Shown one piece after another: positions 10,436-33,735 of a stretch of 33,735 bases of DNA. Where the stretch lies: IMG/VR virus record IMGVR_UViG_3300037285_000123, positions 1-33,735 of that record; one strand, 5' to 3'. The position numbers were made by a program, and so were the translations under genes. Within the stretch, counting starts at the first letter, position 1, and every line of letters begins with the position of its first letter. The notes beneath the pieces were generated by a model. The model was given only the letters and a program-made list of their open reading frames with translations, was not told the DNA's origin and searched no databases. The stretch comes from a virus.

Positions 10436-11698
10436 TTATCTCGCAAGGGTTACACGTAGATTTGCCACTGGCTTTATTACTGGCATTTCGAAGGCTATAG
10501 GATAGGTTCCGGCGTCGGGCAGGTGATCGATGTTACTTTTCTTATCAGGCTCACCATTTTTATCATACGACAATTGCTCCATATTGCTCGCATATTCCGG
10601 GCATTTTGCGTCATTGATAAACAATTTACCATGATCAAAGGCTGAATTTGTTGCTATTACCCTATCTTTGACGTAGGGGTTAGACGCGTTTGCATATACG
10701 GCAAAGCGAGCCGCCTCTAACAATGCAATATCCGAGGTCGACGCGTCGTTTGTTTTTCGGCTATTACCTGATGCGTCTGGATATACCCGTATTGAATGGC
10801 TTGGATACCGATTTTTAATAGTCGCGATCATTGCCGGCGTGTCATATATCCCTTTTAGCTCATCGACTGCATGCCAATTCCCGCTTCTGATGACATAAAT
10901 CACCGCACTCATTTTTGTAACATTGAAATCCATTCCAATGCGCAACAATTCGCCAGGCTGCTCCGGCGTGATCGGCCTAATGGTTTCCGAAGATCGATGC
11001 TTGATGCGATCGTATCGGTTAAAAACCGTGCCGGCCTTTAAATTAACGAACTTACCGCCAACATAAGCAAGCACCAATTCATTAGGATATGTCTCAATGA
11101 GTGAATCGATGTAATCTGGCGGCAAATAATCCTCATTCTCGTAACTAGAGGCTTGAACCATTGAATACGACGCCAAAGGATCTTTCGCGAACTGCTCATA
11201 AACAAACATGAAGCCTTCGGGCGTTGTTGTCACGCCGATTGAGTTTACAACGCCGTCGATCTTAAGACGCAATCTAGCTATGATTTTAATCCATGCGTTT
11301 TTCGCTTTATCTTTTGGCAGCGTGTCTATTTCATCAACAAGCGCCCTAGCGACTTTAAAACCAATAATTGTTTGGGGCTTATCCATAGATCGACAAATAA
11401 CCGTACCGTAATAAACCCGGCCGCGATAAATGTCGATCTCCTTATTGGACACCTTGATATCTACAGTGAAACCCATCATTTCCGATGCTTCTTCAAAAGT
11501 CGGGTAAAAAATATCACGGATAGCGGGATATGATGGCCCAAAATAACCTTGCACGGTTTTAGGGTGCCGTGCGGCAAATGTCAGCAAGTCGAGGCAACCA
11601 ACAAAGGTTTTCCCACTACCAAACCCGCCGACAAACGCCCTAAATTTAGTATTCAGGCCGTTTAAGAAAATACCTTGGGGCGCGCTAAGGCTTAGCAT
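10436..11698 (-). CDS. Terminase large subunit
   Basis: A 420-aa packaging motor. Walker A is GGFGSGKT at residues 24-31; Walker B is ARALVDEID at about 118-123, with the catalytic Glu; a coupling-like GVTTTPEG follows. The nuclease half has GMDFNVTKMSAVIYVI (first catalytic Asp), VYPDASGNSRKTNDAST, and a late SNIDHLPDAGTYPIAF with the last acidic residues. The protein would hydrolyse ATP to drive DNA into the head and cut concatemers. It overlaps terS by 14 bp and is followed by the portal gene. Confidence 0.95.
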   Translation of the reverse strand: MLSLSAPQGIFLNGLNTKFRAFVGGFGSGKTFVGCLDLLTFAARHPKTVQGYFGPSYPAIRDIFYPTFEEASEMMGFTVDIKVSNKEIDIYRGRVYYGTVICRSMDKPQTIIGFKVARALVDEIDTLPKDKAKNAWIKIIARLRLKIDGVVNSIGVTTTPEGFMFVYEQFAKDPLASYSMVQASSYENEDYLPPDYIDSLIETYPNELVLAYVGGKFVNLKAGTVFNRYDRIKHRSSETIRPITPEQPGELLRIGMDFNVTKMSAVIYVIRSGNWHAVDELKGIYDTPAMIATIKNRYPSHSIRVYPDASGNSRKTNDASTSDIALLEAARFAVYANASNPYVKDRVIATNSAFDHGKLFINDAKCPEYASNMEQLSYDKNGEPDKKSNIDHLPDAGTYPIAFEMPVIKPVANLRVTLAR

Positions 11699-12248
11699 TA
11701 GTCACCGGGATATTAGCGACGGCCGGCTTCACCTTGAATGTAACAGTCATAGGCAACGCTTCAGCTTCAGGCGGATCAGCTTTTTCAGCCTGTCCTAACC
11801 ATTGCTTGCCTAGCCAGATTAGCATTGTCGGATTACCACCAACCGCGATCGAATATTGCTTGCGTCTAAGCGACATTTTCCCACTCGCGGCCTTTTGTCC
11901 GAAATACTCCGCAAAAGTACATTTTTTTTCCCGCTTACAGGCCCGTTGAAGGGTGTCGTAGTCAATACCCAAGATGCCTGCCTGTTCCTCGCCCGTGCAG
12001 TGTATTGCGCACATTGAATCGACCTTATCCCAATCGATAGGAATCAATGGCCGATTTGCTGCTCGAGTATTTGGCTTTCCTGTTTTTTTGGCTTTTGGCT
12101 TGGGATTGGGCTTGGGCTTGGGTTTGAGTTTGGGTTCGGGTTTGGCCTTCGCGCTGATCACCGTGCCTGATTTTAATGCGGGTTTTGTCTTCTCTTTTGC
12201 GGTTGTCTTTGCGGATAGCTTAGACTTTGATAGGCGCTTGGCAGCCAT
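11685..12248 (-). CDS. Terminase small subunit
   Basis: A 187-aa protein upstream of and overlapping terL. Residues 1-65 are a low-complexity Lys/Pro/Ala tail, including KPKPKPNPKPKAKK from a TTGGGC-like repeat at about 12098-12152. Residues about 75-140 hold a helix-turn-helix-like segment (EEQAGILGIDYDTLQRACK) and MSLRRKQYSIAVGGNPTMLI followed by WLGKQWLGQAEK, a typical TerS pattern. It would recognise the packaging site and form the ring that loads TerL. The basic Pro-rich tail is unusually long and could add nonspecific DNA binding. Confidence 0.88.
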   Translation of the reverse strand: MAAKRLSKSKLSAKTTAKEKTKPALKSGTVISAKAKPEPKLKPKPKPNPKPKAKKTGKPNTRAANRPLIPIDWDKVDSMCAIHCTGEEQAGILGIDYDTLQRACKREKKCTFAEYFGQKAASGKMSLRRKQYSIAVGGNPTMLIWLGKQWLGQAEKADPPEAEALPMTVTFKVKPAVANIPVTNAKP

Positions 12249-12595
12249 TAAGCGACGCTAACAGCATCAAAATGCTCGCCATTTTCGTTGATGGCTTGCT
12301 GTCCGGTATAATCCTGCCACCGCTTTATAATTACATCGCAGTATTTGGGGTCTAGCTCCGTTAAATTCGCCAGGGTAATCGTTGGCGCCCTCACAAAGCC
12401 TAGCTGTATTGCCGCCAACAATCGGCCATGCCCGGCAATGATGCCTCTATCAGGATCAATTAATATCGGGTTGGTGAACCCGAACTCCTGCATACTTTTC
12501 GCGATTTCATTGATTTGCGCATCAGAGTGCGTTCGCGAATTGTTGGCGTATGAGATTAATTCGATCAGGTCGACATATTCAATGCAAAGATTCAC
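12248..12595 (-). CDS. ParB-like nuclease domain with residual methyltransferase tail (in-frame deletion product)
   Basis: A 115-aa protein. Residues 1-79 are a ParB/Srx-type N-terminal domain (YANNSRTHSDAQINEIAKSM, FGFTNPILIDPDRGIIAGHG with the GHGRLLAA motif at about 55-62). From about residue 81 it reads LDPKYCDVIIKRWQDYTGQQ, which in phage ParB-methylase fusions is the extreme C-terminus of the adenine methyltransferase ('lD..YcDviv.RWe.ftG..a'). The whole catalytic part between (FGGSG and DPPY motifs) is absent. The frame stays open and starts and stops are intact. Such fusions usually lie beside the terminase genes, as here. It may still bind DNA; it cannot methylate. Overlaps both neighbours by 1-4 bp. 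Confidence 0.8.
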   Translation of the reverse strand: MNLCIEYVDLIELISYANNSRTHSDAQINEIAKSMQEFGFTNPILIDPDRGIIAGHGRLLAAIQLGFVRAPTITLANLTELDPKYCDVIIKRWQDYTGQQAINENGEHFDAVSVA

Positions 12596-13206
12596 TTTTT
12601 GCCCCTAACTAATGACGTCATCGAATCCATAAAGCCTACTGCAGGCGGCATCGTTGCGCCTGATGCGGCCGCTGCGGTTCGTTTGTCATCACTACGGCGC
12701 GCAAAATACTGGCGTATGACTTCCATTGCTGGCACTGCGTATGCGCCGGCGAGCCATGGCAACCCATCCATGGTAAGCGCCAACGCAAATGCGGCGTGAT
12801 CAGTCATGACAAGCCAAAAATCGACCACAATTGCTAAAGCCGCCAAATGAAATGAAGACTTTGCGAATTCGACAAATAAATTAGCCATTTTCATTGCGAT
12901 TTGCGGGCGCGTGCTGGCGTTGTTCATTTCCTGAGTAGCTGATAATTCTGCGTAATTGTTTGACTCGACGATTTTTAGATCTATTTCGCGATCCAGCAAC
13001 TCTGCCTGATTATCGGCCGGCAGACGCTTAATCTTCTCGGAAACGCTTGCTACCGGCATATCTATTACATCGACGCCAACGCTATCAGATATCGATTCTA
13101 TTAGCTTTCCGGCTATGCCGGCACCAGGAACTAGCTGCTTGATAACCTCGCCAAAGGGCGAATCACTAAAACCGGCCGCTTTTTTTAATATATCGCGTAA
13201 TTTCAT
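12592..13206 (-). CDS. Holin-like membrane protein (3TM / GTA-type holin family)
   Basis: A 204-aa protein with an amphipathic N-terminal part (MKLRDILKKAAGFSDSPFGE), a charged helix with SEKIKRLPADNQAELLDREI, then hydrophobic segments at about 115-137 (LAALAIVVDFWLVM) and 150-170 (GLPWLAGAYAVPAMEVI). Layout and length fit the 'Holin of 3TMs' family, with an N-terminal region summarising to 'ia..id...p...e..e...e...le'. It sits in the presumed lysis group between a DUF5675-like gene and the packaging genes. The exact lysis role is inferred. Confidence 0.65.
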   Translation of the reverse strand: MKLRDILKKAAGFSDSPFGEVIKQLVPGAGIAGKLIESISDSVGVDVIDMPVASVSEKIKRLPADNQAELLDREIDLKIVESNNYAELSATQEMNNASTRPQIAMKMANLFVEFAKSSFHLAALAIVVDFWLVMTDHAAFALALTMDGLPWLAGAYAVPAMEVIRQYFARRSDDKRTAAAASGATMPPAVGFMDSMTSLVRGKK

Positions 13207-13739
13207 TAGATCACCGTTAATTGTGCGATTGTATCACCGTCTAAATGGTCCTCTAAAATCGCGGTTGCATCGCGAGAACTGCCAACGCCGAGGCCTTTTG
13301 CTGATCCAAAATTAGCCAATCGCTTTCCCGCGCCAGTACAGCCTTGGACCTGAGCAACGTGATTAGCCGAATGAAACATTGTCGAAAAACGCGACCTAAT
13401 CGGGCGCCCCGTTGATTCATCGATATCGGGGCAGTCTTCGAGATCTAAATAAACGCCAAGCTGCGGGTTGAAATAGTGCCATCGCTGGCCGTGTTTAGGG
13501 CTATCACGCATGTGTAGAAGGTAGATTCCGCACGGCACTGATGACACGTATGGCACGCCTGAATCGATTTTGCCGGGCATTGCATTTGATATAAACGGCC
13601 GCTCGATAGTGTAAAGCGTGACCATCCCCTCCGACTTTAATTCACTAATTCTGTGACGCTCGGGATCAAATGCGTGCACGAATTTTTCGGGTATAGTCGC
13701 GGCCGTAAATTGTCGTTGAACTAACTTTATCATCTGCAA
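13206..13739 (-). CDS. DUF5675 family protein, probable lysis-module member
   Basis: A 177-aa protein. Central residues follow the DUF5675 pattern: ISELKSEGMVTLYTIERPFI, then a Cys-containing VPCGIYLLHMRDSPKHG, then MFHSANHVAQVQGCTGAG, which corresponds to 'iliHpgN....GCi..G', and a C-terminal helix. Family members often lie in phage lysis modules and are suspected to act on peptidoglycan; this is not proved. The first ATG (13739) overlaps the upstream gene by 74 bp. A GTG at 13677 would reduce the overlap to 12 bp and may be the real start. Confidence 0.72.
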   Translation of the reverse strand: MQMIKLVQRQFTAATIPEKFVHAFDPERHRISELKSEGMVTLYTIERPFISNAMPGKIDSGVPYVSSVPCGIYLLHMRDSPKHGQRWHYFNPQLGVYLDLEDCPDIDESTGRPIRSRFSTMFHSANHVAQVQGCTGAGKRLANFGSAKGLGVGSSRDATAILEDHLDGDTIAQLTVI

Positions 13740-14220
13740 ATATCTCTTTCGGCATTGCCGTTATTTTTGGGAGCGAAATGACCTCGCGTACTTGCGCGGG
13801 TGTCAGTAGACCGTATATTATTAGCAACGTGAGCAGCACTGCGCAAATGCTGACGGCCATCCATTTTGCGGTTTCTGGCGCTGGCAAAGGGTTTATGACT
13901 GGCGTTGCTGATCTTAGCTCCAAATGCTTTAGATCGTCTTCTATCTGGCTGATTTTTTCCCCAAATACCGCATTTGAGCCGATCATAGGAGCAACTGTTT
14001 TTGTTAATTTGGTCAATTCATCTTTAAGCTGATCAGTTGACACTATAGAAACCGCTAGTGCTGTTTCCATTTTGCTGATGTTGACCGATATTAGTTTATA
14101 TTCTGCCTGGCATTCTTCCGATTTTGCGATTGAAATTACGCCCTGCCTTTCAATCTCTTTAAAAATAGCTTTTAGCTGCATTGATTCTGCGGTTTTACTA
14201 ATGCTTTGGCTATCAGCCAT
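13666..14220 (-). CDS. Coiled-coil protein with one C-terminal-half membrane segment, first gene of lysis/late block
   Basis: A 184-aa protein. Residues 1-105 are helical and charged, with heptad-like spacing (SNISKMETALAVS, DQLKDELTKLTKTV, ISQIEDDLKHLEL); 121-138 is a strong membrane segment (MAVSICAVLLTLLIIYGL); 46 residues follow. I do not recognise a family. Topology resembles anchored coiled-coil phage proteins that accompany holins. It is the first minus-strand gene after the 650-bp region with the LexA box and putative promoter (14279-14307), so it probably heads the late transcript. Confidence 0.6.
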   Translation of the reverse strand: MADSQSISKTAESMQLKAIFKEIERQGVISIAKSEECQAEYKLISVNISKMETALAVSIVSTDQLKDELTKLTKTVAPMIGSNAVFGEKISQIEDDLKHLELRSATPVINPLPAPETAKWMAVSICAVLLTLLIIYGLLTPAQVREVISLPKITAMPKEIFADDKVSSTTIYGRDYTRKIRARI

Positions 14221-14278
14221 GCGTTTTTCCAGATAACTTAATTAATCGATGAGTTATTTTAGATCATCGAGCAAATTG

Positions 14279-14307
14279 ATAATACTGTAAATATATACAG
14301 TTATTCA
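14279..14307 (-). promoter_or_regulatory. Candidate promoter for the lysis/late block
   Basis: On the minus strand, TATTAT (14284-14279) serves as -10 and TGAATA (14307-14302) as a weak -35, with 17 bp between. The LexA box fills the spacer, the usual geometry of LexA-repressed promoters. Transcription would begin near 14272 and run into the gene starting at 14220. The -35 matches only half of the consensus, so confidence is limited. Confidence 0.4.
14283..14302. promoter_or_regulatory. LexA (SOS) box
   Basis: The sequence TACTGTAAATATATACAGTT contains CTGT (14285-14288), eight A/T bases and ACAG (14297-14300), the gammaproteobacterial LexA consensus CTGT-N8-ACAG with the usual T/A flanks. 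It lies 63-82 bp upstream of the ATG at 14220. It occupies the spacer of a candidate minus-strand promoter and has a TTGATA (14276-14281) on the plus strand just before it. Host LexA could repress late or lysis transcription here until DNA damage. Function is inferred; the match itself is direct. Confidence 0.75.
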
Positions 14308-14502
14308 CTGTTTTTATCTAGGGCACTTAGAAGCATTTATGCTAGCGCTTGCGGTCTTTATGCCGGAAGCGTAGCAGCTTGGGAGGTCAAATCTACTCCA
14401 CTTGGAATACTGGCAAGCGACGACATCGCAGAAACGACTTGCTTACGATGCAGGAAAAGCAGATTGCTTGTCAAAGCAACGCTAAAAGAGTTAAATAAAA
14501 TC

Positions 14503-14877
14503 ATGAGTAAGCGCAAGCCGGATAGAACAATCGCCCAACGCCAGAAATCATATCGCGCAAGAATGTAGATCGCTGGGTATTACTGCCTGCTAGTGCGCGT
14601 GAAATGATCATAGAGATAGCCCGTGATGCTCGTAACGGTCACAAAATAATTAAAAGGTACTAAGACTACCGAAAGAGACACTACAGGCAAGTTTATAGAG
14701 GAACTCCACAGGTACAGCGTTAGGTGCTATGAATGCGGAAAATTCTGCATACCTAGTGCAACATTGATGATAATGTCTTCGGGCATACTTCCAGATGAAA
14801 GGGTTTTCTTCTGCTTGCAGCATGACCGCGAAAAGCGATGGCAGAACTACCAGACCACCTTGCCGTTGATGCGTTAA
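14503..14877 (+). pseudogene. Broken plus-strand small genes (frameshifted relics)
   Basis: Coding-like stretches lie in successive frames. An open frame at 14263-14565 without a usual start includes TTCLRCRKSRLLVKATLKEL. From the ATG at 14503 the same frame reads MSKRKPDRTIAQRQKSYRAR and stops at 14566-14568. The next frame continues plausibly (VDRWVLLPASAREMIIEIAR) to a stop at 14661-14663. A third frame from 14650 to 14877 has RCYECGKFCIP and VFFCLQHDREKRWQ, which looks like a Cys/His zinc site. The RQ..YR.R pattern is common in small phage DNA-binding proteins. None of these frames has a good start, so I read the region as decayed or mis-sequenced genes. It ends against NinG-2 and is opposite in direction to both neighbours. 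Confidence 0.5.
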
Positions 14878-15323
14878 ATAGCCTTTCTGTCATTCACGAA
14901 GCGCTTGAGAGCATTGAAGGCGTTATTGTATTCCGCAGGATTGCCCGATAGCATGTTATTGCACTTGTAACACTGCGCGTGAATGTTATCAGCATTGAAT
15001 CGTAATTCAGGATGCGCCCCTACACTCTTGTAGTGGCCTGCATACACGGCTTTCGGTGGTTTCTGGCATGATATGCAAGGTTGACCGGCATCACGCTCCC
15101 TGACTCTCTTGTTAACCGATATCTGAGCCTGCTTAGTGTGCCAGCTCTTGTCATTCGCCCTGAATGCTTTCTTCTGCGTGCTAGTTACCTGTTTCTTGGC
15201 GCTGACAGCGTGCGCCTTGCCTCTATCAGACTTGGCAAAAGCAATCGCACATTGCGGGCTGCATACCATCTGCTTGGAATTTCGAGGCTCGAACTTGACC
15301 GTGCATACTTTGCATTTTTTCAT
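14874..15323 (-). CDS. ninG: NinG-like protein, second copy (short paralogue)
   Basis: A 149-aa protein with the NinG/Rap layout: an N-terminal CxxC...CxxxC zinc site (MKKCKVCTVKFEPRNSKQ, VCSPQCAIAF), a basic helix, then PCISCQ, YAGHYKSVGAHPELRFNADN and IHAQCYKCNNMLSGNPAEY. These match lambda NinG motifs 'CISCG', 'aGHyr......lRf...N.h.QC..CN..ksGN...Y'. NinG/Rap is a structure-specific recombination endonuclease. Its N-terminus closely resembles NinG-1 at 16942-17616, so the two are likely paralogues, with this copy lacking much of the C-terminal part. It overlaps the HigA-like gene by 4 bp. Confidence 0.85.
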   Translation of the reverse strand: MKKCKVCTVKFEPRNSKQMVCSPQCAIAFAKSDRGKAHAVSAKKQVTSTQKKAFRANDKSWHTKQAQISVNKRVRERDAGQPCISCQKPPKAVYAGHYKSVGAHPELRFNADNIHAQCYKCNNMLSGNPAEYNNAFNALKRFVNDRKAI

Positions 15324-15577
15324 GTAGATTTGCGAGATTGGTTAATGAGAGTGCCTTCCAACTCTAAATCGCCAAGGTTTAACCATAAATCAGTGCTGGT
15401 GCCAAATGCACGACCAAAAGCTTCAGCTAACTCTGGCGTTATATGAATGCTTCCATCTAATATTCTTTGCACTTCCTCAATCGACGCACCACTTTTTTCC
15501 GAAAAGTACGAAGCGCTCCATTTTCTTTCTTCTAACTCATCTTTTACTATTTCTTGTATTAAATATTTAATTTTCAC
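15320..15577 (-). CDS. HigA-like HTH regulator without an evident toxin partner
   Basis: An 85-aa protein starting at GTG, preceded by GGAGAAG on the minus strand. It has the HigA/VapI pattern: WSASYFSEKSGASIEEVQRI (helix-turn-helix) and ITPELAEAFGRAFGTSTDLW followed by LNLGDLE, the family signature 'it...A..la..fgts...WlnLq'. HigA proteins repress their own operon and neutralise HigB, but the upstream 80-aa gene does not resemble HigB. It may be an orphan regulator. It overlaps NinG-2 by 4 bp. Confidence 0.75.
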   Translation of the reverse strand: MKIKYLIQEIVKDELEERKWSASYFSEKSGASIEEVQRILDGSIHITPELAEAFGRAFGTSTDLWLNLGDLELEGTLINQSRKST

Positions 15578-15617
15578 TTACTTCTCCATTGATTGCTTTT
15601 TGCCATTAGTTTTATCC

Positions 15618-15860
15618 CTAACTCACACTGCCGTTGTTAAATGCTGACTCCCAGTAATTAATTTCTCGCTTTGAGCCTACGAATTTATCGGAATCAAAAA
15701 GCGATTTTCTTATATTGAGTTCACTTTTCATTATCTCAATTTGATGCCTATTTGGAGTCCACCCGTAAAGCCATTCCGCATGACTTTGATCAGTTATTGT
15801 TAGTTGCTTAACGCGTGAGTTTTTCTCTATTCTCTTCTTAATACCTGCCCATTTTCTCAT
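15618..15860 (-). CDS. Unknown 80-aa protein upstream of the HigA-like gene
   Basis: A basic 80-aa protein beginning MRKWAGIKKRIEKNSRVKQL, with AEWLYGWTPNRHQIEIMKSE in the middle. No family recognised. Its ATG overlaps the stop of the preceding 31-aa gene (TAATG at 15862-15858), which supports real translation. The downstream HigA-like gene starts 40 bp after its stop. It lacks the HigB pattern; a role as a different toxin is only a guess. Confidence 0.55.
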   Translation of the reverse strand: MRKWAGIKKRIEKNSRVKQLTITDQSHAEWLYGWTPNRHQIEIMKSELNIRKSLFDSDKFVGSKREINYWESAFNNGSVS

Positions 15861-15955
15861 TACTTAACCTCATTAGTTGCAGACCATAATAGCCCCTGAT
15901 ATTTTGCAATTACTTCTCTCCATGTCGTATAATTATTATTTTGACTCAATCGCAT
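15860..15955 (-). CDS. Very small protein (31 aa), translationally coupled
   Basis: Codes for MRLSQNNNYTTWREVIAKYQ plus 11 residues ending in EVK. The start lies inside the end of the preceding gene (15936-16121) and the stop overlaps the next ATG as TAATG. It fills what would otherwise be a 75-bp gap between coupled genes. The Trp-rich pattern 'tW.evia.y..l.W....' looks protein-like. Function unknown. Confidence 0.5.
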   Translation of the reverse strand: MRLSQNNNYTTWREVIAKYQGLLWSATNEVK

Positions 15956-16121
15956 TGCAGATTTCATCTTCAAGAGCCGTGTTTTCTTCTTCTAAAAAAT
16001 GAAGCCTTTCGTATGCTCTTTTTAATAACGCTATTAGTATAGCGTTTTTATCTTCTGCTTCATAAGCATCGTCTCTCTCGGCCTCGTATCGGTCATCATC
16101 TCGCTCTTCTTGTGTTTTCAT
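15936..16121 (-). CDS. Small acidic coiled-coil protein, unknown function
   Basis: A 61-aa protein. The first 25 residues are rich in Asp/Glu/Arg (KTQEERDDDRYEAERDDAYE), followed by a probable coiled coil (ILIALLKRAYERLHFLEEEN). No family recognised. It overlaps the upstream gene by 4 bp (ATGA), consistent with the coupled nin-like operon. Confidence 0.55.
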   Translation of the reverse strand: MKTQEERDDDRYEAERDDAYEAEDKNAILIALLKRAYERLHFLEEENTALEDEICNAIESK

Positions 16122-16408
16122 TTCTCACTCTCCTTTCTTGCTTTGGCTGCCCTAGACATTTCATGGCCTTTCTTTCTAAATGCGCCGGTTATACTTCCCC
16201 TGGCTAGATAGTCCTGATCACCGGAAACGCCCATCTCAATCTTTGATACCTGGCCACCCTGGGCTAAAAACGCCTCGACCTTGCTATCAATCGCCTCCCG
16301 CTGGATGTCCTTAACGCGCCGAATCATTGGCGCTTGCTCTGACATTTCGCGGATCTCCTTCTCAATTCCCAATATTGTGTGTTTTCGTGTCGTTGGCCTG
16401 CTCATCAT
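16118..16408 (-). CDS. Small basic phage protein, unknown function
   Basis: A 96-aa protein, basic at both ends, with the central segment VEAFLAQGGQVSKIEMGVSG. Patterns of the type 'v..FLa.GG.i.k...G.' occur in small phage proteins of replication or regulation regions, but I cannot assign a role. Start: ATG 16408 overlaps the end of the previous gene; ATG 16405 is an alternative one codon in. Confidence 0.55.
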   Translation of the reverse strand: MMSRPTTRKHTILGIEKEIREMSEQAPMIRRVKDIQREAIDSKVEAFLAQGGQVSKIEMGVSGDQDYLARGSITGAFRKKGHEMSRAAKARKESEK

Positions 16409-16842
16409 TAATCTCCCTTCTCGTGTTTAGCCACACACTCTGCGTGTTTGGCGGTATTCATCGCATAGTTGCAATGAATACAGATGTTGTGATCCTCACC
16501 TACATCAGCGCCTCGCGTTCGCAAGATGCAGACTTGCCGGTGCTGCTCACTTATCACGGTTGAAAAACATCCTCGACATATTTCTAGTCTAATCATGCGA
16601 TCCTCTTGGTTTTGTACTCTAGCGCCATAACTGTCGCAGGTGCCCGGTACGACATCCATAGGCGCGATTTTCATCACCTTTGGCAATCTCGGAACTTTGC
16701 CCTGTCTAGCCGCGTTGCTGTACCTGACAGCGCACGATTTATTGCAAAATATCCGAGCCTCAAAAAACTTGTCACTCTCGAGTCGACAAGACTTATTGAT
16801 TTTTTTTACTAGATCCTTTTCACAGACTAAGCAAATTTTCAT
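16408..16842 (-). CDS. Cys-rich putative zinc-binding protein
   Basis: A 144-aa protein with an N-terminal CLVCEK and FCNKSCAVRYSNAARQG, a treble-clef or FCS-type zinc finger resembling the N-termini of the NinG proteins nearby, then a second Cys group (EICRGCFSTVISEQHRQVC) and a third (HNICIHCNYAMNTAKHAEC). It probably binds two or three zinc ions and nucleic acid. Its ATG overlaps the stop of the 40-aa membrane gene (ATGA). Confidence 0.6.
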   Translation of the reverse strand: MKICLVCEKDLVKKINKSCRLESDKFFEARIFCNKSCAVRYSNAARQGKVPRLPKVMKIAPMDVVPGTCDSYGARVQNQEDRMIRLEICRGCFSTVISEQHRQVCILRTRGADVGEDHNICIHCNYAMNTAKHAECVAKHEKGD

Positions 16843-16961
16843 TTTGCCATCCAGATTGCGACTAATCCGGCAACCACAATAACGGTAATCAATGCGACAA
16901 AAAATTGTGCGAATGCCTCGACAATTTCATAGCGTTGCATTTTACGTATTCTGTTGAACAT
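16839..16961 (-). CDS. Single-pass membrane microprotein (40 aa)
   Basis: Starts at ATG 16961, preceded by GGAGAG at good spacing. Reads MFNRIRKMQRYEIVEAFAQF followed by FVALITVIVVAGLVAIW and MAK: a basic N-terminus, then a strong membrane segment at residues about 19-37. It overlaps the end of NinG-1 by 20 bp and its stop overlaps the next ATG (ATGA). I recognise no family. Membrane microproteins are unusual between NinG and the other small nin-type genes. Confidence 0.6.
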   Translation of the reverse strand: MFNRIRKMQRYEIVEAFAQFFVALITVIVVAGLVAIWMAK

Positions 16962-17616
16962 AAAACTCTCCATTTAATAAATTATCTAGCCTTCGGCTCT
17001 CGCGCGCGCAGTCAGCGCGCATTGCCTTTAAATCAGGACCGTACCAGGTTATTAATTCTGTATTTATCTCGCAGTAATCAATAATCATCCGCGCACCATC
17101 AACGCCAAATCGCTGATGTAACCCGGCTTTGTATCCAACGCTTTGCTTGGTCCCCTCAATATTTCCTGACAGGCTTTTATTGCAACGCATGTTGCACTGT
17201 AAAAAATTATTTCGTCGGTAATACCTTAAATTAGCCTGATGCCCAACGGTTTTAAAATGCCCGCAACACCAATCCATGTTTTGTTTTAAGCATGAAATGC
17301 AATACGGCTCGATTCCTCGATCTTGAAACCATAGCAATTCTTCTCTCACTCGCATGTGATTGTAAGCGGCTTGCGTCAATTTATGCTGATATGAGGTGTC
17401 ATGGAGCCTAGCATTTGCATCGAATTTTTTGTTTATCGCTTTCTTGGCTTTTTTGCTTTTAGCAGCTGCTCGTGACTCTGATTTTCTTGCTTTTTGCGCA
17501 TGAGATTTGCCTTTGTCACTGGTCGCAAAAATAATTGAACAGCGAATAGAACAGCAAACTTGCACAGTGTTAAATTTGGGCGCGAATTCAACGAGGCACA
17601 CGTTGCATTTTTTCAC
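16942..17616 (-). CDS. ninG: NinG-like recombination protein (first copy)
   Basis: A 224-aa protein of NinG/Rap length (lambda NinG is about 200). It has an N-terminal zinc site (MKKCNVCLVEFAPKF, VCCSIRCSIIFA), a long Lys/Ala-rich helix, then CISCLKQ, WCCGHFKTVGHQANLRYYRR and FLQCNMRCNKSLSGNIEGTK, plus a C-terminal helical part with RMIIDYCEIN. These are the family's conserved Cys/His and N-rich motifs. NinG is a structure-specific nuclease that assists phage recombination. It overlaps the HTH gene by 4 bp. Confidence 0.9.
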   Translation of the reverse strand: MKKCNVCLVEFAPKFNTVQVCCSIRCSIIFATSDKGKSHAQKARKSESRAAAKSKKAKKAINKKFDANARLHDTSYQHKLTQAAYNHMRVREELLWFQDRGIEPYCISCLKQNMDWCCGHFKTVGHQANLRYYRRNNFLQCNMRCNKSLSGNIEGTKQSVGYKAGLHQRFGVDGARMIIDYCEINTELITWYGPDLKAMRADCARESRRLDNLLNGEFYVQQNT

Positions 17617-17942
17617 GATTTAGCCCGCCTTTCATAGATCCTGCTGATCGTTTTTGGGTCAACGCTGAATGCCTGCGCCAGCTCACCGCGCAATCGAATA
17701 TTGACCCGCATCACCGTGCATACAATTTTTTCCTGGACATCAGTCAATTTGCGGGCAGCGTGTCGGCCATCCGGCATGCGTGGTGCTGCCCGCTTTTTTC
17801 CATTCCAAATAATCCCGCGCAAAATTTTGCTTATCGTCGATTGATCGGTTTTAAAGTGCGCGGCTAACTGAACCTGCGTCATGTCTTTACGCCGATATAC
17901 CTCGCGGATTTCAGTTGCGATCGAAAATGTTAATTTACTCAT
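17613..17942 (-). CDS. HTH DNA-binding protein with two possible HTH motifs
   Basis: A 109-aa basic protein. The first HTH is at about residues 21-43 (TQVQLAAHFKTDQSTISKIL) and a second at about 82-104 (RLRGELAQAFSVDPKTISRI). Two HTH units of 'Q..lA..F.vd..TIsri' type in one small protein are reminiscent of resolvase-like or HNH-associated HTH proteins. In the nin-type region it could be a regulator of late genes, but there is no direct evidence. It overlaps both neighbours by 4 bp. Confidence 0.65.
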   Translation of the reverse strand: MSKLTFSIATEIREVYRRKDMTQVQLAAHFKTDQSTISKILRGIIWNGKKRAAPRMPDGRHAARKLTDVQEKIVCTVMRVNIRLRGELAQAFSVDPKTISRIYERRAKS

Positions 17943-18375: not shown

Positions 18376-19230
18376 TTACCTCGCTGTTTCTAGTTTTTTG
18401 ATCAATTCATGACGCGTCTTGCCTACCGTCTGAATTCCTGAATCTTTGCACAATTTTAAAATCTCGTTATTGGTTTTTCCATTCAAGTTCTTTTTGCTCG
18501 GCTCCTGATCATCCTGCATCTGACTTGCAATTCGATCATAAGAATTGCGAAGCGTTTTAGCTGATAAAATATTCGAGCACCAAAAATCCGATCGATGCGC
18601 CCATCTAAAAACCTTCCACAAATCCTCTAGCGTCCGGCCATCTAGCCTGACTGCTCGATCAAGCTCTTTTGCCCATTCTTTAAAATTTGGCGTCTTGGTG
18701 TGAGTGTATTTGGCCTTGATCGTATCAAATATTTTTATAGCGAATTGGTATTCGCGGGTTGCCTCTATCTTGTCTACCTCTAATTCTACTTCTACTTCTA
18801 CTTCTACTTCTACTTCTACTTCTAGACCGTCACCTTTTGTAACGTGTGACGTTTCGTGTGACGTTTCGTGTGACGTTTCGTGTGACGATTGAATTAAAGC
18901 TTTTTTCTTCTCGCGCCATTTTGCGGTTCTGCTGGCGCTTGAGTCTGATGATTGCTGGCGCTTTTCCCAGGCTAGTGGTTGCCATTCATCATTGATCAGC
19001 CCCGCATCGATAAGCCGAGTTTTAACGTCACTGATCATCGCATGGTCAATCCACAAAGATTGCGCCACCATTCGATCTAAAATTTTAGAATCACACGCCT
19101 GATCAAGATCGCCTCGCGCTTTCAGAGCGCAAACTGCAATAAAATGTCGCTGATCTTCGAAAGATAGCCCTAGCATTTTCGGATCTGTCAAAAAGTCATG
19201 ATATTGGCGAAACCATGGCAAACCTGCCAT
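18376..19230 (-). CDS. Replication initiation protein (lambda O-like role)
   Basis: A 284-aa protein beginning MAGLPWFRQYHDFLTDPKML, the usual start of phage replisome organiser proteins ('..W.r.y.d.l.dpk...l'). Residues 1-100 are winged-helix-like; about 115-155 is a low-complexity linker encoded by 12-bp repeats (SHETSHETSHETSHV) and 6-bp repeats (EVEVEVEVEVEVELEV); 155-284 is a helical C-terminal domain (RTLEDLWKVFRWAHRSDFWC) resembling the conserved part of phage replication proteins that recruit helicase. A replication origin may lie in or near the repeat-rich coding region, as in lambda O; this is inference. It overlaps the Cro-like gene by 1 bp. Confidence 0.78.
   Translation of the reverse strand: MAGLPWFRQYHDFLTDPKMLGLSFEDQRHFIAVCALKARGDLDQACDSKILDRMVAQSLWIDHAMISDVKTRLIDAGLINDEWQPLAWEKRQQSSDSSASRTAKWREKKKALIQSSHETSHETSHETSHVTKGDGLEVEVEVEVEVEVELEVDKIEATREYQFAIKIFDTIKAKYTHTKTPNFKEWAKELDRAVRLDGRTLEDLWKVFRWAHRSDFWCSNILSAKTLRNSYDRIASQMQDDQEPSKKNLNGKTNNEILKLCKDSGIQTVGKTRHELIKKLETAR
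18784..18824. repeat. Hexanucleotide microsatellite TTCTAC inside the replication gene
   Basis: About seven tandem TTCTAC units on the plus strand (GAAGTA on the minus) encode alternating Glu-Val. It keeps the frame because the unit is 6 bp, so copy number can vary without breaking the gene. Confidence 0.9.
18843..18887. repeat. 12-bp tandem repeat CGTGTGACGTTT inside the replication gene
   Basis: Three and a half copies of CGTGTGACGTTT, encoding the SHET tetrapeptide repeat on the minus strand. The array is just upstream (in the gene's direction) of the TTCTAC array. Repeats inside an initiator gene are reminiscent of lambda iterons within O, though these are directly repeated without dyad symmetry. 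Confidence 0.85.
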
Positions 19231-19415
19231 CAGACTTCCATTTTCCGACCGCTCAAATACTCATACACGGCTTTCAAGTTTCTATAACCAGGGTTACTGC
19301 CCGGCCGCATGATCGTATAGACAGACCCTAAAGATATGTTGCATTCAACCGCTATTCGCTCCTTCGGTTGCTCGGTTGTTTTAAGCATGTCCTGAGTTTT
19401 TTCTAAATAGTCCAT
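19230..19415 (-). CDS. Cro-like HTH regulator
   Basis: A 61-aa protein if started at ATG 19415 (MDYLEKTQDMLKTTEQPKER); an upstream in-frame ATG at 19439 would add 8 residues but lies at or before the predicted transcription start of the promoter at 19443-19471, so I prefer 19415. Residues about 18-40 form an HTH (ERIAVECNISLGSVYTIMRP), and YRNLKAVYEYLSGR follows, the pattern of small Cro/XRE-type or 'HTH of phage' proteins. It sits at the divergent early control region, the expected place for a Cro-type switch. No CI partner is visible. Confidence 0.7.
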   Translation of the reverse strand: MDYLEKTQDMLKTTEQPKERIAVECNISLGSVYTIMRPGSNPGYRNLKAVYEYLSGRKMEV

Positions 19416-19442
19416 TTTATAGCCCGTTGATAGTTTCAACGT

Positions 19443-19479: not shown

Positions 19480-19492
19480 ACTGATGATCAGT
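19480..19492. promoter_or_regulatory. Candidate operator dyad
   Basis: ACTGATGATCAGT: arms ACTGA and TCAGT around TGA. It sits in the 110-bp divergent region between the Cro-like gene and the plus-strand operon, about 9 bp upstream of the minus promoter's -35. It could be bound by the Cro-like protein. Only one clear copy was seen, so this is tentative. Confidence 0.4.
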
Positions 19493-19525: not shown

Positions 19526-19795
19526 ATGCTGTTGCTATCTATTACAATAGGTATTATTGTTAGTACAAGGATAAGCAATCATCAACCAACAACGAGAAGC
19601 GATATGAAATTAATAATCAATAGCAAGAAACACGGCGAGGTTACTTTTTCACGCCCAGGCAGTTTTTACATATACGTAGACCTAAATGGCCACGAGATGA
19701 AAAATACACTGGTAGTAACGCGGCACAAGGCGCTATTGCAGCACCTTAATAATCTCGGATTAACGTCCGAAGTTAGTCAGGAGGCAAAGTCATGA
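19526..19795 (+). CDS. First gene of the plus-strand early operon, unknown function
   Basis: An 89-aa frame. ATG 19526 has a good site (AAGGA, 6 bp before). The first 16 residues are hydrophobic (MLLLSITIGIIVSTRI). An internal ATG at 19604, with GAGAAG before it, would give a 63-aa protein beginning MKLIINSKKHGEVTFSRPGS, which looks more like a natural start for the folded part. No family recognised. Overlaps the next gene by 4 bp. Confidence 0.55.
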   Translation: MLLLSITIGIIVSTRISNHQPTTRSDMKLIINSKKHGEVTFSRPGSFYIYVDLNGHEMKNTLVVTRHKALLQHLNNLGLTSEVSQEAKS

Positions 19796-32321: not shown

Positions 32322-32917
32322 GCTAAAACATCCTCTACAGCGTCAATCTTGAACGATGAATTGAAGCCCGGTTGATTATCCCATGCCGCCTTTGACGATA
32401 GAATGAATACTCCCATAACAGGTAGCGCGTAATATACTCTAAAATTGTTTATCGTCTGTTTTCTAATAGGCGGCGCAATAGACAATGTTACTTCGCCGAA
32501 ATCGTCAGAATCGGCGTCGTCCGTGATCATGTGCAACTCGTTGTTAAACGAAATATAGTCTCCGGCCATTAAATAATCGCTAACGGACCTTGAAGCGCCG
32601 TCGCAATGAATAGTTGACCCGCCTTGCCCACCGCCGTTGATTCTCAGGTCGCCGCCGGCTTCACCGCGCCTGACAAAAGCGTGATCATGGAGATAGAATC
32701 GATGTTCCTGCCCATTGAGTTTCGCTAAAAATGCCTGCATTACTGCGCGCTCATCACTGAACAAATTATCAAAGGCCAAGGTTACTTTCCAAAGTGAACC
32801 TTTGCGGCTTGATGTCTGCACAGAATTAGTCAATGGCGATCTGAACGATTTTGTGTTTGAAACCAATTCAAACGATGAGCGACTAGGGAGAATATCAGGA
32901 AAACTAAATATCGTCAT
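32318..32917 (-). CDS. Distal tail protein (minor tail, lambda M/Dit-like position)
   Basis: A 199-aa protein. Features: TSSRKGSLWKVTLAFDNLFS, AVMQAFLAKLNGQEHRFYLH and DHAFVRRGEAGGDLRIN, then MAGDYISFNNELHMITDDAD. This 'r.g..w.v.l.f..l...e...l.afla.l.G....f.l.dp...' pattern is known in phage tail proteins that follow the tape measure. Touches the tape measure end (base 32917 shared). Confidence 0.68.
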   Translation of the reverse strand: MTIFSFPDILPSRSSFELVSNTKSFRSPLTNSVQTSSRKGSLWKVTLAFDNLFSDERAVMQAFLAKLNGQEHRFYLHDHAFVRRGEAGGDLRINGGGQGGSTIHCDGASRSVSDYLMAGDYISFNNELHMITDDADSDDFGEVTLSIAPPIRKQTINNFRVYYALPVMGVFILSSKAAWDNQPGFNSSFKIDAVEDVLA

Positions 32918-33735
32918 TACAACCTACCTCGGCGCATTAAATCCTGGATTTTAGAGACCGTTTGGCGGCTCGTGTTAATCATCGCCTGCTGAATTTTTAT
33001 CTCTAGATCCGGTCCCGCGCTCGACGCGTCAATATTATTTACGATAGAGACAGAGCCGCCACCGCCTAGATTTTGATTAGGCGTTACCCGTCCAGACGTA
33101 CCCATATGCAACAATTCTGGACCTCGCTCGCCTACCAAGTAGGATTGGCCGCCGCGCACCTGACCGCCTAGCGCACGTGCTGCAACGGCCGAACCTGACA
33201 GCGCCGCAATAGATGCGGCCATTGGTGCGGTTACAGCAACTGCTGCTGCGGCTGCTGCGGGCGCCGCTACCGGGCCAACGATTGGTATAGCCGCAGTCGA
33301 TGCGAACGCACTTAAGCCCGCCATAACTGACATGGCGGAGGCATTCAACCCTAACCCTAGATTTTGATTAGGCGTTACCCGTCCAGACGTACCCATATGC
33401 AACAATTCTGGACCTCGCTCGCCTACCAAATAGGATTGGCCGCCGCGCACCTGACCGCCTAGCGCACGTGCTGCAACGGCCGAACCTGACAGCGCCGCAA
33501 TAGATGCGGCCAGATTTTGATTAGGCGTTACCCGTCCAGACGTACCCATATGCAACAATTCTGGACCTCGCTCGCCTACCAAATAGGATTGGCCGCCGCG
33601 CACCTGACCGCCTAGCGCACGTGCTGCAACGGCCGAACCTGACAGCGCCGCAATAGATGCGGCCAGATTTTGATTAGGCGTTACCCGTCCAGACGTACCC
33701 ATATGCAACAATTCTGGACCTCGCTCGCCTACCAA
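32917..33735 (-). CDS. Tail tape measure protein, C-terminal part (runs off window end)
   Basis: Open frame from base 33735 to the stop at 32917 (272 codons plus stop). It is the continuation of the gene at 1-2588: base 44 (and 197) of the left frame aligns with 33735 in register. Content: three 51-residue-type copies with GGQVRGGQSYLVGERGPELL, one 97-residue unit adding SAMSVMAGLSAFASTAAIPI and an Ala-rich stretch, and a unique end (GGGGSVSIVNNIDASSAGPD, then QAMINTSRQTVSKIQDLMRR) typical of tape measure C-termini. The first codon in the window is TTG by chance; it is not a start. Confidence 0.9.
   Translation of the reverse strand: MVGERGPELLHMGTSGRVTPNQNLAASIAALSGSAVAARALGGQVRGGQSYLVGERGPELLHMGTSGRVTPNQNLAASIAALSGSAVAARALGGQVRGGQSYLVGERGPELLHMGTSGRVTPNQNLGLGLNASAMSVMAGLSAFASTAAIPIVGPVAAPAAAAAAVAVTAPMAASIAALSGSAVAARALGGQVRGGQSYLVGERGPELLHMGTSGRVTPNQNLGGGGSVSIVNNIDASSAGPDLEIKIQQAMINTSRQTVSKIQDLMRRGRL
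33068..33735. repeat. In-frame direct repeats of the tape-measure C-terminus (right end)
   Basis: The 27-bp block starting agattttgattaggc occurs at 33068, 33359, 33512 and 33665; spacings are 291, 153 and 153 bp (97, 51 and 51 codons). Copies at 33386 and 33539 carry accaaatagg; the copy at 33095, next to the Ala-rich part, carries accaagtagg, as does the copy at 154. Bases 33539-33735 equal 1-197, so the end is either a circular overlap or a break within the array. Confidence 0.95.

Follow-up and report, generated by a model that had tools for sequence, protein, structure and literature searches.

A LexA box at the head of a phage late operon

The question that this locus raises is whether a tailed phage in which lysogeny genes are not recognised leaves the expression of its late genes to the SOS repressor of its host. 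The window, meaning the whole stretch of DNA analysed, is a virus contig of 33,735 bases. At positions 14283-14302 it carries the palindrome TACTGTAAATATATACAGTT on the plus strand, which reads AACTGTATATATTTACAGTA on the minus strand, and whose core CTGTAAATATATACAG (14285-14300) falls within 14279-14307, where a LexA box had been predicted. The palindrome is identical at 18 of 20 positions to the LexA consensus of E. coli, and it is of the type that gammaproteobacterial LexA generally uses. When the window was scored with a matrix of 18 LexA sites of E. coli, the box reached 25.3 bits, which is higher than 17 of these 18 sites, whose own scores range from 12.7 to 25.5. Sixty Markov-shuffled windows reached 15.9 at best, and the exact chance expectation for the box score was 1.4e-5 per window at the composition of the window and 1e-4 when the entire window was set to the AT richness of the spot where the box lies. 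An exact CTGT-N8-ACAG occurs only once in the window, at this box, and the matrix scan found no second LexA site above 7.5 bits anywhere else in it. Its score, its uniqueness and the chance expectation indicate that the box is real and not a product of AT richness, and thus the near-ideal LexA box of the original prediction is confirmed.

The late operon and the candidate promoters

The box lies 62 bp ahead of the first gene of the late operon, which starts at 14220 on the minus strand, and this position matches that of lambda PR'. From there the operon encodes, in order, a 184-aa orphan, a DUF5675 protein, a candidate holin, a ParB-domain ORF, the putative small terminase, the large terminase, and the portal, capsid and tail proteins, and it extends on to 2581 and across the tape measure (Table 1). 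Between 14220 and 10436 gene follows gene closely, with no evident internal break, and therefore the terminase and capsid genes would be transcribed from a promoter at the box too. The functions of the first two genes downstream of the box are weakly supported. The 184-aa protein has a single relative, at 94%, and had no match to protein families, including antirepressor and dinI/umuD-like ones; the gene heads a lysis/packaging operon. The only named homologue of the candidate holin is in Vibrio phage 1.214.O, where it adjoins a peptidase M15A gene, and it is from such features that we infer a holin. The structure models of the DUF5675 protein (pLDDT 39) and of the candidate holin (pLDDT 47) were too poor for use.

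Table 1. Coordinates of the features discussed in the text
Feature	Coordinates	Strand	Basis or remark
Candidate promoter A	14279-14307	-	TGAATA (14307-14302), 17 nt, TATTAT (14284-14279); box fills spacer; weak
Candidate promoter B	14263-14291	-	TTTACA (14291-14286), 17 nt, GATGAT (14268-14263); -35 covered by box; weak
First late gene, 184 aa	13666-14220	-	coiled-coil-like, one hydrophobic stretch (WMAVSICAVLLTLLIIYGLL); lysis accessory by position only
DUF5675 protein, candidate lysis enzyme	13206-13739	-	PF18925, E 1.9e-7; lysis role by position
Candidate holin	12592-13206	-	hydrophobic helices; neighbourhood of homologue
ParB-domain ORF, 115-aa domain	12248-12595	-	beside terminase genes
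Putative small terminase	11685-12248	-	by position
Large terminase	10436-11698	-	
Tape-measure gene spanning the record ends	1-2588 and 32917-33735	-	both ends in a 153-nt tandem repeat
Cro-like HTH protein, 69 aa, first gene of rightward early operon	19230-19439	-	sequence inspection and position; no family match
Early operator-like palindrome ACTGATGATCAGT	19480-19492	.	flanked by the divergent early operons; not of LexA type
SutA RNA-polymerase-binding domain protein, 96 aa, early operon	16118-16408	-	PF20661, E 6e-12, 45 bits against a cut-off of 29.3
HigA-like HTH protein	15320-15577	-	toxin partner not evident
Segment exchanged in close relative	14339-16642	.	0.87 kb of unrelated DNA there in IMGVR_UViG_3300037328_000032

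The candidate -35 and -10 hexamers overlap the box, but their quality is no better than chance. The score of TGAATA-17-TATTAT is matched about 5.5 times in each kb of a strand, that of its 18-nt version, GTGAAT-18-TATTAT, about 1.4 times, and that of TTTACA-17-GATGAT about 0.8 times. Thus, of the proposal that the box fills the spacer of a promoter facing the late genes, the hexamers are present but the pair is no better than chance would give, and for this reason we regard the promoter as plausible only; it is the gene order that points to one at the box. Since all the candidate pairs overlap the box, occupancy by LexA would block whichever one serves.

The early region and the absence of recognised lysogeny genes

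The overall organisation of the phage is lambda-like, with divergent early operons that begin at 19439 on the minus strand and at 19526 on the plus strand. The minus-strand or rightward operon, which shares its direction with the late operon, starts with the 69-aa HTH-like ORF and goes on with an O-like replication protein, NinB, an HTH protein, a NinG-like protein and, further on, NinG, and the plus-strand operon encodes a Sak annealing protein, a Gp157/Gam-like protein and others. Two proteins of the NinG family (PF05766) are encoded in the same early operon on the minus strand, at 14874-15323 (E 1e-34) and 16942-17616 (E 2e-19). No LexA box was found at the early promoters in the matrix scan of the window. 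An operator common to the early region and the late box was ruled out, as the spacing of the early palindrome differs. Because the early promoters are without a LexA site and are served by a palindrome and an HTH protein of their own, the early genes should run on entry. The SutA-domain protein is a candidate modulator of RNA polymerase, and its presence hints at a gammaproteobacterial host.

When a Q-type antiterminator was looked for, no family match was found in the stretch from the O-like gene to the box, nor in the segment exchanged in the relative, and hence the lambda arrangement of a Q gene upstream of the late promoter PR' was not seen. A Q gene hidden on the minus strand of the gap at 14303-14874, a stretch that resembles degraded coding sequence, was ruled out by broken frames. 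On the plus strand, three open frames in the interval from NinG to the box (14263-14877) resemble one or two small genes without start codons and with a frameshift. Their coding signal is weak and relatives were not found; they are possibly decayed genes opposite the late operon.

Because both of its ends sit in one repeat of the tape-measure gene, the record is a permuted circle and essentially complete; the number of the repeats is probably an assembly artefact. In this record, with the small ORFs scanned in part, no ORF was recognised as an integrase or as a cleavable or large CI, the two proteins that together mark a CI-type temperate phage. Among the proteins scanned there was no LexA-family match that would indicate a phage LexA homologue, and genes for plasmid replication or partition were not recognised either, the ParB-like ORF being a domain of 115 aa next to the terminase genes. 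The earlier observation that neither a CI-like repressor nor an integrase is visible therefore holds for these two proteins, but regulators do exist, namely the Cro-like and HigA-like HTH proteins and the SutA-domain protein.

Distribution of the box among relatives

In three protein scans and one DNA scan, the lysis module was found in one other contig only, IMGVR_UViG_3300037328_000032, which matches the window at 14338-12357 with 97.3% identity and at 19609-16643 with 93.7% identity. The segment exchanged between these two blocks holds the NinG, HigA-like HTH and SutA-domain genes of the window, and it comes within 36 bp of the box on the upstream side, so that the box and the late module are retained in the relative. 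Because the exchange ends there, the box and the late module have moved as a single unit, and this co-movement supports a self-contained late promoter. The relative does not demonstrate selection on the 20-bp box, since the pair is about 97% identical in the module and thus too close. Together with the sequence and position of the box, this co-inheritance lends good support to the prediction that a LexA operator heads the late/lysis operon.

The terminase has relatives in Oceanospirillum phage vB_OliS_GJ44 and in Pseudoalteromonas phages HS1 and H105/1, all of which infect Gammaproteobacteria, and from this we infer a host of the same class. When 33 records of terminase relatives were searched for LexA sites, the close relative among them, no comparable site at the late operon was found in the other 32, where the stray matches were isolated and either GC-rich or off-consensus. 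Phages vB_OliS_GJ44 and HS1 resemble the phage studied here in having a terminase of about 61% identity, related packaging genes, no annotated integrase and gammaproteobacterial hosts, but neither genome has a LexA box of comparable quality. Conservation is thus confined to one close relative, and LexA control throughout the clade is rejected.

Host LexA as a probable gate on late gene expression

These observations suggest that it is the damage alarm of the host, and not a switch of the phage, that holds back or releases the late genes, and SOS-linked release would most likely be the function of the box. The reading that we favour, and think rather more probable than its negation, is that host LexA gates the late operon as an SOS-linked timing checkpoint and not as a classical lysogeny repressor. 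A LexA operator would overlap the promoter of the lysis, packaging, capsid and tail genes in the position of lambda PR', so that in an undamaged cell LexA would repress late transcription only, while the early operons, being without a LexA site, would be expressed at once. Phage replication and recombination, or DNA damage, would then activate RecA, LexA would be cleaved, its repression would be lifted and the late genes would be made; the replicated genome copies may also titrate LexA and thereby help the release. LexA would in this way act as a brake on late timing, an SOS-gated deferment of lysis. The original prediction of an SOS-linked release module with host LexA as the switch is supported in part: the early promoters are without a LexA box, which makes LexA unlikely as a lysogeny switch of the CTXphi or GIL01 P1 kind, and the control of the N15 antirepressor is another layout.

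An alternative that we consider unlikely is that the box drives the first gene or the lysis genes only, as an SOS accessory like that of colicin lysis, and that the bulk of late RNA is read-through from the rightward early operon. This would fit the shared direction of the two operons, the weak hexamers of the late promoter and the fact that no terminator-like site was found on the late-operon strand in 14220-14874; however, the tightly packed genes from 14220 to 10436 would be fed from a promoter at the box, and the segment upstream of the box is exchangeable.

It is slightly less probable still that the phage is kept as an extrachromosomal carrier state in which host LexA is the repressor and damage triggers release, as in the Bacillus thuringiensis tectivirus GIL01. 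The failure to recognise an integrase or a cleavable CI and the LexA box at the presumed late promoter, for which GIL01 is a precedent, agree with it, but GIL01-type lysogeny needs early repression too, which lowers its likelihood: GIL01 P1 has a LexA box whereas the early promoters here have none, the early region is served by the Cro-like regulator and a different operator, and plasmid maintenance genes were not recognised.

That the palindrome is the operator of a phage-encoded regulator and its likeness to a LexA box fortuitous is improbable. Small HTH proteins are indeed encoded (19230-19439, 17613-17942 and 15320-15577), but the site is single and absent from the early promoters, where ACTGATGATCAGT is spaced differently, and the segment with the HTH gene at 15320 is missing beside the late module of the relative, where the box is still there. 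Least probable is an inherited remnant with no present function, for although the box is in two genomes only, its promoter is weak and the adjoining 14303-14874 resembles degraded coding sequence, both genomes have a near-perfect match and the presumed promoter is left intact by the recombination.

The proposed gating of the late operon by host LexA has its closest precedents in two systems. In GIL01 the late promoter P3 is repressed by LexA through high-affinity boxes (PMC6182141), and the likeness to the layout proposed here lies in LexA boxes that follow the -35 of a promoter serving the late genes for virion and lysis proteins, without a dedicated phage repressor (PMC6182141). Here too, as at P3, the sequence predicts a late operon headed by a LexA-type operator, while the LexA boxes that GIL01 has at its early promoter as well are not found. 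GIL01 also differs in its tandem Bacillus-type boxes, the co-repressor gp7 and the LexA-like activator gp6, whereas here a single gamma-type box stands at the late operon only of a tailed phage. In prophages of extra-intestinal E. coli, LexA binds and represses endolysin promoters (PMC9621596), and a host LexA site directly upstream of phage lysis genes is likewise predicted here; those boxes are, however, far from consensus, whereas the present one is close to consensus and stands before an entire late operon, in a phage for which no integrase was recognised. In coliphage 186 (Tum) and Gifsy, LexA controls antirepressors (PMC3121763). These phages and CTXphi also couple DNA damage to phage output through a LexA box in the phage genome, but LexA governs an antirepressor or repressor gene there and not a late operon; the antirepressor control of N15 and Gifsy is a more distant arrangement than that of the two precedents. 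A further precedent is the 'lytic deferment' proposed for phages of Alphaproteobacteria, in which host CtrA would restrain their lytic programme (PMC9437464), with the difference that CtrA is a cell cycle regulator acting at multiple sites and not part of LexA/SOS.

A tentative extension, which we hold to be possible but more probably wrong than right, is that this is a non-integrating, lambda-organised tailed phage in which unmodified host LexA would be the sole brake on the whole late operon with the early genes free, and in which SOS generated by replication, or LexA titration, would be the late timer in lytic infection with no Q antiterminator. If LexA does gate the late operon, its roles in antirepressor control and in lysogeny switches would be joined by one in late timing, in a tailed phage whose genome shows no recognised lysogeny genes. 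Late expression would be predicted to follow the SOS state of the host, uncleavable LexA to block or delay lysis, and DNA-damaging drugs to hasten lysis by such phages. The box together with the late genes would also be a pointer to a minimal late-promoter unit that travels with late genes.

Near-perfect LexA boxes in other viral contigs

When viral contigs were scanned with TACTGTWWATATWWACAGTW, at least 118 loci were found. Among the matches listed, the box adjoined a protein family occurring at least three times in 85 of 118 loci, from which it follows that boxes this good usually mark SOS genes. The recurrent families identified among these matches were UmuD-like proteins, DinI and CI-like repressors, although some few of the families that recur could be spurious frames. 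Among the families listed for the 22 representatives, 25 of 33, none is a named lysis or packaging family, which makes a box at a late operon unusual in its position. Two families of recurrent small phage proteins, represented by L127:7929-8168 (about 79 aa, at least 20 loci) and L185:294-482 (about 62 aa, at least 15 loci), have representatives that follow near-perfect LexA boxes at a distance of about 15 bp, and both look like common phage SOS genes.
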